A DNA stretch of 64,000 bases. Origin: Akkermansia sp. (lineage in GTDB: Bacteria; Verrucomicrobiota; Verrucomicrobiia; Verrucomicrobiales; Akkermansiaceae). Numbering within the stretch: position 1 is the stretch's first letter; each line of letters begins with the position of its first letter. Position numbers and translations under genes: made by a program. A model generated the notes under the pieces. It ran no database searches. It saw only the letters and a list, made by a program, of their open reading frames with translations, and had not been told where the DNA came from. The stretch spans positions 25,778 through 89,777 of the forward strand of contig JAUNQN010000002.1 of NCBI GenBank assembly GCA_030536145.1, written 5' to 3'. This document shows positions 13,104 to 51,368 of the stretch, in pieces.

Positions 13104-13991
13104 ATGCAAGACATCACCTCCCTTATCAAGGAAACGGCCGCCCGCGTGGAGGCCCGCCTGAACGAGCTGCTGCCGGATGAGACCGTGCAGCCCGCCTCCC
13201 TCCACAAGGCCATGCGCTACAGCATCTTTGCCGGTGGCAAGCGCATCCGCCCGCTGCTGTGCATAGAGTCCGCCAAGGCCTGCGGTGCCACGGAGGAGGA
13301 TGCCCTGAACGCCGCCTGCGCCCTGGAGGTGCTGCACACCTACACCCTTATCCACGACGACCTGCCGTGCATGGACAACGACGACCTGCGCCGCGGCCGC
13401 CCCACCAACCACAAGGTGTTCGGCGAGGGCGTGGCCGTGCTGGCCGGTGATGCCCTGCTCACGGAGGCCTTCGCCATCCTGGCCCGCGTGCCGGCCAACG
13501 ACCGCTACACCGTGGGCGACTACGTGGCGGAGTTTGCGTACCGCACCGGCAGCCTGAACCTGGTCGGCGGCCAGGTGCTGGACCTGGAGGGTGAGGGCCG
13601 CGCCCTCTCCGTGGAGGAGCTGCGCGCCATCCACCACGGCAAGACCTCCGCGCTCATCATGGCCTCCACCCGCCTGGGCGGCATGGTGGCAGGCTGCACG
13701 CAGGAGCAGCTGGATGCCCTTACCGCCTACGGCCGCGACCTGGGCTTGGCCTTCCAGATTATCGACGACATCCTGGATGTCACCTCCTCCCCGGAGGTGC
13801 TGGGCAAGAGCATCGGCAAGGATGCCGCCGTGCAGAAGGCCACCTATCCCTCCCTGGTGGGCCTGGAGCAGGCACGCGCAGAGGCGCGAGACCTCACCGC
13901 CTCCGCCCGCGCAGCGCTGGATGTGTTCTCCCCCAAGCGCCGGGAGACCCTGCTGGCCATCAACGATTTCCTGCTCAGCCGCGATTATTGA
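13104..13991 (+). CDS. ispA: Polyprenyl synthetase, farnesyl/geranyl diphosphate synthase type
   Basis: 295 residues. The first Asp-rich motif (DDLPCMDNDDLRRGRPTNH, with the bacterial two-residue insertion) and the second (IIDDILDVT) bind Mg-diphosphate. GGKRIRP binds substrate. It condenses isopentenyl diphosphate with allylic diphosphates to C15 or C20 products. An SD-like AGAAAGG lies before the start. It is transcribed with asd and ends at a bulged hairpin with T7. Confidence 0.94.
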   Translation: MQDITSLIKETAARVEARLNELLPDETVQPASLHKAMRYSIFAGGKRIRPLLCIESAKACGATEEDALNAACALEVLHTYTLIHDDLPCMDNDDLRRGRPTNHKVFGEGVAVLAGDALLTEAFAILARVPANDRYTVGDYVAEFAYRTGSLNLVGGQVLDLEGEGRALSVEELRAIHHGKTSALIMASTRLGGMVAGCTQEQLDALTAYGRDLGLAFQIIDDILDVTSSPEVLGKSIGKDAAVQKATYPSLVGLEQARAEARDLTASARAALDVFSPKRRETLLAINDFLLSRDY

Positions 13992-49110: not shown

Positions 49111-49956
49111 ATGACCAAGAAGGAAAGCGCTCCCGCCAAGAAAGCCGAGCCTGCCAAGAAGGCCTCCCCGGCCAAGAAAGCCTGTGCCGCCAAGAAAAAG
49201 CCTGCCGCCGCCGATGCCGTGAAAGAGGAGGCTCCTGCCATGAAGGCCGCCGCCGCCAAGCCTGCCGCTCCCAAGGCCAAGGCAGAGCCCAAAAATACCA
49301 AGGCTGCTGACAAGAAGCCCAAGCCCGCGGGCGAAAAGCCGGCAGCCGGCAAGCCTGCGGCTGAGAAAGCCAAGCCGGCCGATGCCAGGAAGCCCAAGCC
49401 GGAGGCTCCTGCCAAGGAGCAGCTCTCCGAGGTGGAGAAGGCCAGGATTGTCAAGCTCCGCGCCACTATGGACCTGCTGAAGGCAGATCCGGAGTGGCCC
49501 GCCTTCCTGCAGGAGCAGAAAGCCGCCCTGCTCAAGCTGCGCGACAGCATCCTGCCCAACATGCAGAACGTGACCCGCGACCACCTGCGCAGCGGCAACT
49601 CCAATGTCTCCTCCTCCTCCGGCCAGCACATCGGCGATGCCGGCAGCGAGGCCGAGGTGCGCGACCTCACCATCCGCCTGCTGGACAAGGACCGCGAGCA
49701 GCTTTTCGAGATTGACGCCGCCCTGGAGCGCATACGCTTAGGGTTTTACGGCATCTGCGAGGTCTCCCTGGAGCCCATTCCCAAGAAACGCCTGCAGGTC
49801 CGCCCCTTCTGCCGCCTGACCGTGAAATGCCAGGAGGAGTACGAGAAGAAATACGGCTCCTACGCCAACTACAAGGCCAAGAACAGGGATGACGTCGGCT
49901 TCGGGAATATACAAAATAGCATGGAAAATGCAATTTCTCTTGACGACGACGAATAA
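49111..49956 (+). CDS. DksA/TraR-like protein with a histone-H1-like tail and degenerate zinc finger
   Basis: 281 residues. Residues 1 to about 105 are Lys/Ala/Pro low complexity with repeated PAKKA-type units, like bacterial H1 homologues. Residues about 110-265 are DksA/TraR-like: a coiled coil, then GFYGICEVSLEPIPKKRLQVRPFCRLTVKCQEEYE. The canonical C-x2-C...C-x2-C is broken: C216 is kept but its partner is S219, and C240 is kept but its partner is T237, with an extra C234. It may bind RNA polymerase or DNA. The L33 promoter lies in its 3' end. Confidence 0.85.
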   Translation: MTKKESAPAKKAEPAKKASPAKKACAAKKKPAAADAVKEEAPAMKAAAAKPAAPKAKAEPKNTKAADKKPKPAGEKPAAGKPAAEKAKPADARKPKPEAPAKEQLSEVEKARIVKLRATMDLLKADPEWPAFLQEQKAALLKLRDSILPNMQNVTRDHLRSGNSNVSSSSGQHIGDAGSEAEVRDLTIRLLDKDREQLFEIDAALERIRLGFYGICEVSLEPIPKKRLQVRPFCRLTVKCQEEYEKKYGSYANYKAKNRDDVGFGNIQNSMENAISLDDDE

Positions 49957-50570: not shown

Positions 50571-51368
50571 ATGAAGGAACTCAAGGACACGCAGAACGAG
50601 CCGGATACCCGTCAGGTCTCCATAGACCGCGTGGGTGTACGCGGTATCCGCTTTCCCATAGTGGTGAGCGACAAGGAGCACCGCACGCAATCCACGGTGG
50701 CCACCGTATCCCTGATGGTGGACCTGCCGGAGGAGTACAAGGGCACGCACATGAGCCGCTTTGTGGAGGCCCTGCATGAGCACAAGCGCTACCTGGACGT
50801 GCACACGGCCGTGCGCCTGCCGAACCGCCTGCTGGACAAGCTGGCCGCGCAGCGCGCGCACGTGGAGATAGAGTTCCCCTTCTTCCGCACCAAGAAAGCC
50901 CCCGTGACCGGCATGGAGGGCATGATGGACTATGACGTACGCTTCGTCATCGATGCCGACCGCGACGGCGGCAACCAGTTCACGCTGACCATCAAGGTGC
51001 CGGTGACCACGCTGTGCCCGTGCTCCAAGGCCATGAGCGAGCGCGGCGCGCACAACCAGCGCGGCATAGTGACCTATTCCGTGCGGTTCAGCGGTTCCGC
51101 GGTGTGGATTGAGGACCTGATAGACCTGATAGAGGGCTGCGCCAGCTGCCAGCTGTATAGCCTGCTCAAGCGCCCCGATGAGAAGTACGTGACGGACCGC
51201 GCGTATGAGAACCCGGTGTTTGTGGAGGACCTGGTGCGCAACGTGGCGGTGGCCACGGAGCACTACAAGGCCTTCAGCTGGTACCGCGTGGAGGCGGAGA
51301 ACTTCGAGTCCATCCACAACCACAGCGCCTACGCCATGGTGGAGCGCAAGCTGGACCGGGAGCCGTGA
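50571..51368 (+). CDS. folE2: GTP cyclohydrolase I, type IB
   Basis: 265 residues. It converts GTP to dihydroneopterin triphosphate, the first step of folate and of 7-deazaguanine (queuosine) synthesis. Family blocks: PVTTLCPCSKAMSERGAHNQRG and CASCQLYSLLKRPDEKYVTDRAYENPVFVEDLVRN. Type IB enzymes work with metals other than zinc, and often replace FolE under zinc limitation. SD AAGGAAGG precedes the ATG. Its stop overlaps the next start (GTGA). Confidence 0.94.
   Translation: MKELKDTQNEPDTRQVSIDRVGVRGIRFPIVVSDKEHRTQSTVATVSLMVDLPEEYKGTHMSRFVEALHEHKRYLDVHTAVRLPNRLLDKLAAQRAHVEIEFPFFRTKKAPVTGMEGMMDYDVRFVIDADRDGGNQFTLTIKVPVTTLCPCSKAMSERGAHNQRGIVTYSVRFSGSAVWIEDLIDLIEGCASCQLYSLLKRPDEKYVTDRAYENPVFVEDLVRNVAVATEHYKAFSWYRVEAENFESIHNHSAYAMVERKLDREP

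Follow-up and report, generated by a model that had tools for sequence, protein, structure and literature searches.

A probable zinc-independent DksA-family regulator with a histone H1-like tail in Akkermansia, and a recurrent A-run frame break in its relatives

A gene in a 64,000-nucleotide stretch of an Akkermansia genome (hereafter the window) raises the question of what a DksA-type protein does with a lysine-, alanine- and proline-rich tail resembling histone H1, and of what has become of its zinc finger. The most important point in the answer lies in the window's relatives: in sister lineages, as their sequences indicate, tail and domain are parted by a conserved and recurrent frame break at a run of A. 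From the window alone, which an earlier sequence-only reading had covered, the break could not have been noticed. The gene probably encodes a zinc-independent DksA-family RNA polymerase regulator with an H1-like disordered tail, which in the shifted lineages would be recoded into two products.

In the window itself, tail and domain share one open frame with no frame break, and this copy is the plain in-frame form, for which recoding is unnecessary. A Lys/Ala/Pro tail of about 105 residues ahead of a DksA-type domain, as first proposed, was borne out within a single ATG-initiated frame of 281 residues (Table 1). A start codon near residue 105 was sought and not found: the in-frame ATG, GTG or TTG codons before the domain are codons 1, 37 and 44, and the ATG at codon 120 falls within the first predicted helix. 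The view of the tail as an untranslated artefact was rejected on the positions of these start codons, the tails of relatives and the composition of the tail, and the fusion stands as a true one. Specifically, residues 1-130, which end just before the domain anchor, form a long low-complexity stretch of the AlgP type with 67% K+A+P and a pI of 10.0, and nearly all loci sampled across the class have a K/A/P tail ahead of the domain. Judged from these comparisons, the partnership of tail and domain is old and the fusion real. The composition of the tail, like that of the free product expected in shifted lineages, is similar to the K/P/A-rich, H1-like repeat region of Pseudomonas aeruginosa AlgP (AlgR3), which is described as a DNA-binding protein at polyphosphate granules; in AlgP, however, the repeats lie C-terminal to another domain, there is no DksA domain, and the portion of the source at hand reports no frame break (PMC9239181). 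The polycationic and presumably disordered tail would hold the factor on DNA, RNA or polyphosphate.

Table 1. Features of the tail-DksA gene and its downstream neighbours, in window coordinates.
Feature	Position	Strand	Basis
Tail-DksA fusion gene, 281 aa, one frame	49111..49956	+	ATG start, stop-free; PF01258 match
K/A/P-rich H1-like tail, about residues 1-105	49111..49425	+	Composition, pI; similar tails in nearly all relatives
KKK codons AAG AAA AAG (A5 only)	49192..49200	+	Read from sequence
DksA-fold domain (coiled-coil hairpin + globular part)	49426..49956	+	Profile, predicted structure, alignment
D176, hairpin-tip Asp, invariant	49636..49638	+	Alignment A4 column D73, 45/45
Eroded zinc site	49756..49830	+	Sequence, alignment, Cys tallies
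C216	49756..49758	+	
S219	49765..49767	+	
C234	49810..49812	+	
T237	49819..49821	+	
C240	49828..49830	+	
rpmG, ribosomal protein L33, 57 aa	49998..50171	+	PF00471 E 2.3e-13, only genome match; a single Cys remaining of its CxxC pairs, by sequence
rpsR, ribosomal protein S18, 81 aa	50199..50444	+	PF01084 E 2.4e-19, only genome match
folE2, FolE2-type GTP cyclohydrolase	50571..51368	+	PF02649 E 2.1e-94; NF010200 above cut-off

A survey of the class gave a match in 270 of 285 genomes, from which part of the loci were read and to which two further order searches were added, and within Akkermansia 73 of the 76 genomes searched carry the gene. The counts of frame breaks, cysteines and runs of nine or more A (A9+) use each genome once, duplicates having been removed. 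The 56 named loci come nearly all from Akkermansia metagenome assemblies, with domain identities of 62-84%; the domain of A. glycaniphila is 60% identical to that of the window. In three genomes of the genus (G022, G054 and G075) the domain was unmatched, and the contigs of several others end within the repetitive tail.

In 17 of the 73 Akkermansia loci the domain is not in the frame of the tail; these loci fall into two clades, one of them sister to the window's lineage. The same holds for all four genomes of g12, a genus belonging to a different family of the home order. The arrangement is the same in 21 of 21 shifted loci: the tail frame crosses a run of nine or ten A (A9 or A10) at a KKK motif and reaches a stop 0-4 nt after it, and the DksA frame is -1 relative to the tail frame. 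The relatives' slip site thus uses the same residues as the KKK motif listed for the window, and its positional equivalence to that motif is an assumption. In the in-frame Akkermansia tails, KKK is spelled A9 in 0 of 34. Contig ends truncate the upstream side, leaving the starts outside the sequence, in four of the 17 Akkermansia and one of the four g12 shifted loci; the tails run to about 117-194 aa in 13 Akkermansia loci and 62-120 aa in three g12 loci, lengths that are approximate, as start codons were set by a script rule. Complete tails of shifted relatives contain 80-92% K+A+P and have a pI of 11.1-11.8. The domain is readable in 204 loci, and 19 of these contain A9 or longer within the predicted tail, namely 17 of the 21 shifted loci (four contig-cut shifted loci being unscored), L301 and the in-frame L295. 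Outside Akkermansia, A9-A10 thus exists in frame too, as A9 in L295 and as A10 in the second run of L301.

The shifted state has at least two origins within Akkermansia, on well-supported (starred) branches, and a further one in g12. Median pN/pS of the domain is 0.196, 0.045 and 0.154 in the three shifted groups and 0.086, 0.096 and 0.033 in the in-frame groups, so purifying selection still acts on the DksA domain of the shifted groups. The relatives combine a slippery run, its presence in several species and a second frame under selection, and the frame break, conserved and recurrent in sister lineages, looks programmed. The shifted lineages likely make the fusion and, as a second product, a free H1-like protein. 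Recoding at the A-run would yield a free protein of about 60-195 aa in addition to the fusion, while the window lineage would make the fusion only; were recoding to give both products, one site would set the ratio of a chromatin-like protein to a polymerase factor. The closest known likeness, which concerns the relatives and not the window copy, is poly-A recoded dnaX (Thermus, and the two-ORF dnaX of other bacteria), where a comparable A9-A10 run is used and, in the two-ORF form, the short product is reported to terminate right after the shift site (PMC5009743, PMC3711429). The gene family is another one, however, and in the shifted relatives the site lies nearer the N-terminal side, so that the long product gains a catalytic-type domain.

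As to how the two frames would be joined, the sequences lean slightly towards transcriptional slippage over a ribosomal shift, although both are possible and may act together. The lean rests on the fact that every site has at least nine A: selection against slippage is reported as evident in many bacteria at nine A, and the run in Thermus dnaX is of that length (PMC1088944). Insertions into transcripts of A/T runs are described as climbing exponentially with run length (PMC5574713), and because a single added A moves reading to the -1 frame, slippage is favoured. That ribosomes slip by -1 on a phased A_AAA_AAG or A_AAA_AAA, stimulated by a downstream hairpin, is nonetheless a quite possible account of the same loci. 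Such heptamers, reported as known shift motifs (PMC4066793, PMC3711429), lie within the run in the right phase, and hairpins follow it in 4/4 loci of clade I and 8/8 of clade IIa (z -3.5 to -7.5), with compensatory changes at 2 of 21 pairs in clade I and 5 of 18 in clade IIa. In two of the four g12 loci a short hairpin stands about 11 nt past the run, and in the others it is weaker or more distant. Among in-frame tails, 1% of 480 windows fall under z -3.4, in a comparison of 25 hand-chosen genes (22 of family f1, three from outside the genus family or from other genera) with 17 shifted ones; windows just as strong occur at other places in the tails of two in-frame genes (L109, -6.44; L053, -5.74). 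Against a purely ribosomal mechanism, all 21 runs have 9 or 10 A although a ribosome would need only 6-7, and an upstream SD-like element is absent from 21/21. The main stems of clades I and IIa, moreover, begin about 15-28 nt after the run, while a spacing of 5-8 nt is given as usual (PMC4066793) and one of 3-14 nt has been reported (PMC5009743), and the five loci of clade IIb show no hairpin in this position (z -0.1 to +1.6). An Rfam search around the gene gave no match. A further conjecture, and a doubtful one, is that the shifted relatives have acquired, in at least three independent origins, a self-tuning switch in which the fusion, as a secondary-channel factor, would feed back on slippage and so set the ratio of H1-like protein to regulator.

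The domain that this fusion carries has, by profile and by model, a DksA fold. PF01258 matches the window domain with 34.5 bits (cut-off 24.9, E 2.1e-8) and 45 of 45 relatives at E <= 0.01, and this gene is its single match in the 2.63-Mb, 99.8% complete genome; the NCBIfam DksA models stay below their curated cut-offs (TIGR02420, 48.6 of 115.5 bits; NF033459, 56 of 105; PRK10778, 18.3 of 289). A search of a plasmid collection returned distant matches only, none with 80% query coverage. A family profile built from the 45 domains finds Chlamydia Dks (6ptg, E 2.3e-31), Pseudomonas DksA2 (4ijj) and E. coli DksA (1tjl). The DksA/TraR-type assignment of the sequence-only reading was also checked by predicting the structure of residues 104-281 (mean pLDDT 82), and the model gives the coiled-coil hairpin and globular part of DksA: it aligns with 1tjl at Z 12.6 (119 residues, 2.3 A), 4ijj at Z 12.6 (122 residues, 3.6 A, 27% identity), 5vsw at Z 12.3 and 6ptg at Z 11.0 (86 residues, 2.4 A), the best-scoring unrelated chain reaching Z 8.0. 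The hairpin tip of E. coli DksA carries two Asp, and in the window protein an acidic tip residue, D176, is shared by all 45 aligned relatives. By analogy of fold and family, the domain would bind in the secondary channel of RNA polymerase, where classical DksA works in synergy with ppGpp, and would do so without need for zinc, in the manner of Pseudomonas DksA2. The hairpin and globular fold are shared with E. coli DksA (1tjl, 5vsw, 7khi; Z 12.2-12.6), which differs in having a four-Cys zinc finger and no tail.

In the finger region of the window protein, two of the four ligand cysteines remain, plus C234, so that the positions read C/S/T/C in place of the classical four Cys. All five residues, C216, S219, C234, T237 and C240, are present where the sequence-only reading had placed them, but their half-lost state is no peculiarity of this gene: C/S/T/C is the rule among its relatives, found in 73/73 Akkermansia loci, 17/20 loci of other genera of the family, 30/44 of other families of the home order and 49/60 of other orders sampled (the rest of the latter being seven C/C/T/C, two C/C/D/C, one C/C/C/C and one C/S/S/C), and it is the commonest pattern in most of the sampled class. 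Relatives with four intact cysteines, for which the survey also looked, do exist in 6/6 loci of one distant order, that of G091, and otherwise only in the single locus just listed. In the order of G103, C/S/T/C occurs in 0 of 29 loci, which instead read C/T/S/G (22), C/T/S/A (4) or C/T/T/G (3). These tallies come from an expression that requires Cys at position 216 and is thus blind to its loss, and which missed 1/21, 2/62 and 1/30 loci in three groups; in the alignment of 45 relatives, C216 is the sole invariant Cys position. C234 is found in 58/73 Akkermansia loci versus 1/159 loci in five other groups. The simplest reading is that an ancestral C4 finger eroded stepwise with the first Cys retained; from these distributions, the loss of two of the four ligands is old and class-wide, and C234 is a gain within part of Akkermansia.

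The proposal that C216 and C240, perhaps with C234, form a disulfide that alters activity, and hence a redox switch, is unlikely on this distribution. C216 and C240 are both present in 73/73 Akkermansia loci, and a four-Cys DksA is reported as a thiol sensor in Salmonella (PMC4815678). Outside Akkermansia, however, the two part company, C240 being gone where C216 is kept in 29/29 readable loci of one order and 13/44 loci of other families of the home order; a redox pair as a general reading was therefore rejected, and a redox role, if there is one, may be confined to the Akkermansia lineage, where every locus keeps both cysteines. The two-Cys DksA2 of Pseudomonas aeruginosa is, moreover, described as a zinc-free substitute (PMC9213440).

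The genes that lie downstream make a zinc-independent, DksA2-like factor a better fit than a redox switch. The gene order is dksA-rpmG-rpsR-folE2, which bears out the ribosomal neighbourhood noted earlier. By sequence, L33, S18 and the DksA domain each retain the first Cys only of a CxxC pair, and FolE (PF01227) has no match in the genome. An S18-like sequence follows the gene in 68/68 Akkermansia loci with sufficient flank; among the 50 named loci for which 1.1 kb or more of downstream sequence is available, 29 have L33-S18-FolE2 and the remaining 21 L33-S18 only. Elsewhere Zur is described as controlling DksA2, zinc-free L33 and FolE2, which stand in for their counterparts during zinc starvation; folE2 and the zinc-free ribosomal proteins belong to the same zinc-sparing set as the zinc-free DksA2 (PMC8000910, PMC9213440). 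The window gene is not a second copy of this kind: unlike DksA2, a zinc-starvation paralogue, it is the only PF01258 gene of its genome, and a palindrome scan found no Zur-box-like palindrome at 17/21 or better upstream of it. The set thus seems to be fixed in zinc-free form as sole copies, which suggests that Akkermansia would hold permanently what other bacteria induce only in zinc starvation. DksA2 (4ijj) shares with the window protein the fold and the presence of only two zinc-type cysteines, but keeps C/T/C/A where the window has C/S/T/C and lacks an H1-like tail. Chlamydia trachomatis Dks (6ptg), the nearest solved relative by profile, likewise has eroded zinc ligands with C/S in the first pair, but reads C/S/T/S with a single Cys in a 132-residue chain without a K/A/P tail. 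What the sequence-only reading said of fold, tail fusion and ribosomal neighbours was therefore upheld, whereas its special two-Cys redox switch was not, the pair not being kept together. After folE2 comes a xylose-isomerase-like TIM barrel gene (PF01261, 51365-52303), whose start overlaps the end of folE2.

Two further accounts would leave the shifted lineages without a recoded fusion. It is improbable that they simply have two genes, with the DksA domain translated from its own start after the tail stop by reinitiation or a coupled start. An ATG, GTG or TTG does lie between run and domain in 17/21 loci (the domain TTG and absences of the L014/L017 type excluded), and in 7/21 a start is accompanied by an SD-like 4-mer. 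These starts, however, lie at different positions from locus to locus and mostly lack an SD-like sequence, and in L014 and L017 the DksA frame contains no ATG, GTG or TTG between the run and the domain's own TTG. Downstream of the run, moreover, the sequence is once more basic and rich in K/A/P, and in no locus does a stop interrupt the DksA frame across the run. That the breaks are dead genes, replication-slippage phase variation or homopolymer assembly errors is very improbable: homopolymer runs are error-prone, all named shifted sources are metagenome assemblies and one locus, L151, resembles such a case, but a single phase holds in 21/21 loci, whereas under phase variation roughly one in three should be in frame, domain pN/pS is low in the shifted groups, the clade I sequences stem from two separate record series (JAKSOT/JAKSOU; JAUNHW/JAUNNT), and the nearby stop is retained while surrounding bases vary. 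L151 (A9, +1 relation) was itself set aside as a further recoding case, its 99% identical relative L277 being in frame without an A8 run.

Should recoding occur in the relatives, a single gene would give a bacterial H1-like protein and an RNA polymerase factor tethered to the same tail, with at least three origins. Poly-A recoding would then have a new use, one that links nucleoid-type proteins to the control of ribosomal transcription, and the in-frame and shifted states among sister lineages would offer a natural experiment. In the open-access literature, no paper was found that mentions DksA and frameshift together with either Verrucomicrobia or lysine-rich sequence, or Akkermansia together with transcriptional slippage; eight papers mention both DksA and transcriptional slippage. 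Across the class, the motif KK(A/P)..A9 occurs in 33 of 384 genomes, six of them in the Akkermansia part of the sample, where five have it at the tail-DksA gene; 4 of 30 such loci retrieved carry a DksA domain, all of them already-known sites.

In a single genome of another order, L301 (G429:C1) has a short basic tail, an A10 run, a TGA 3 nt on and a DksA frame at -1. This A10 precedes the finger motif by about 846 nt, a second A10 is in frame, and the locus is a candidate fourth origin of the frame break. In a further locus of another order, L278 (G196:C36, about 13173-13598), a 2190-aa open frame with sequence that looks helicase-like by eye ends C-terminally in a second DksA-like domain, which is 75% identical to that genome's ordinary copy.
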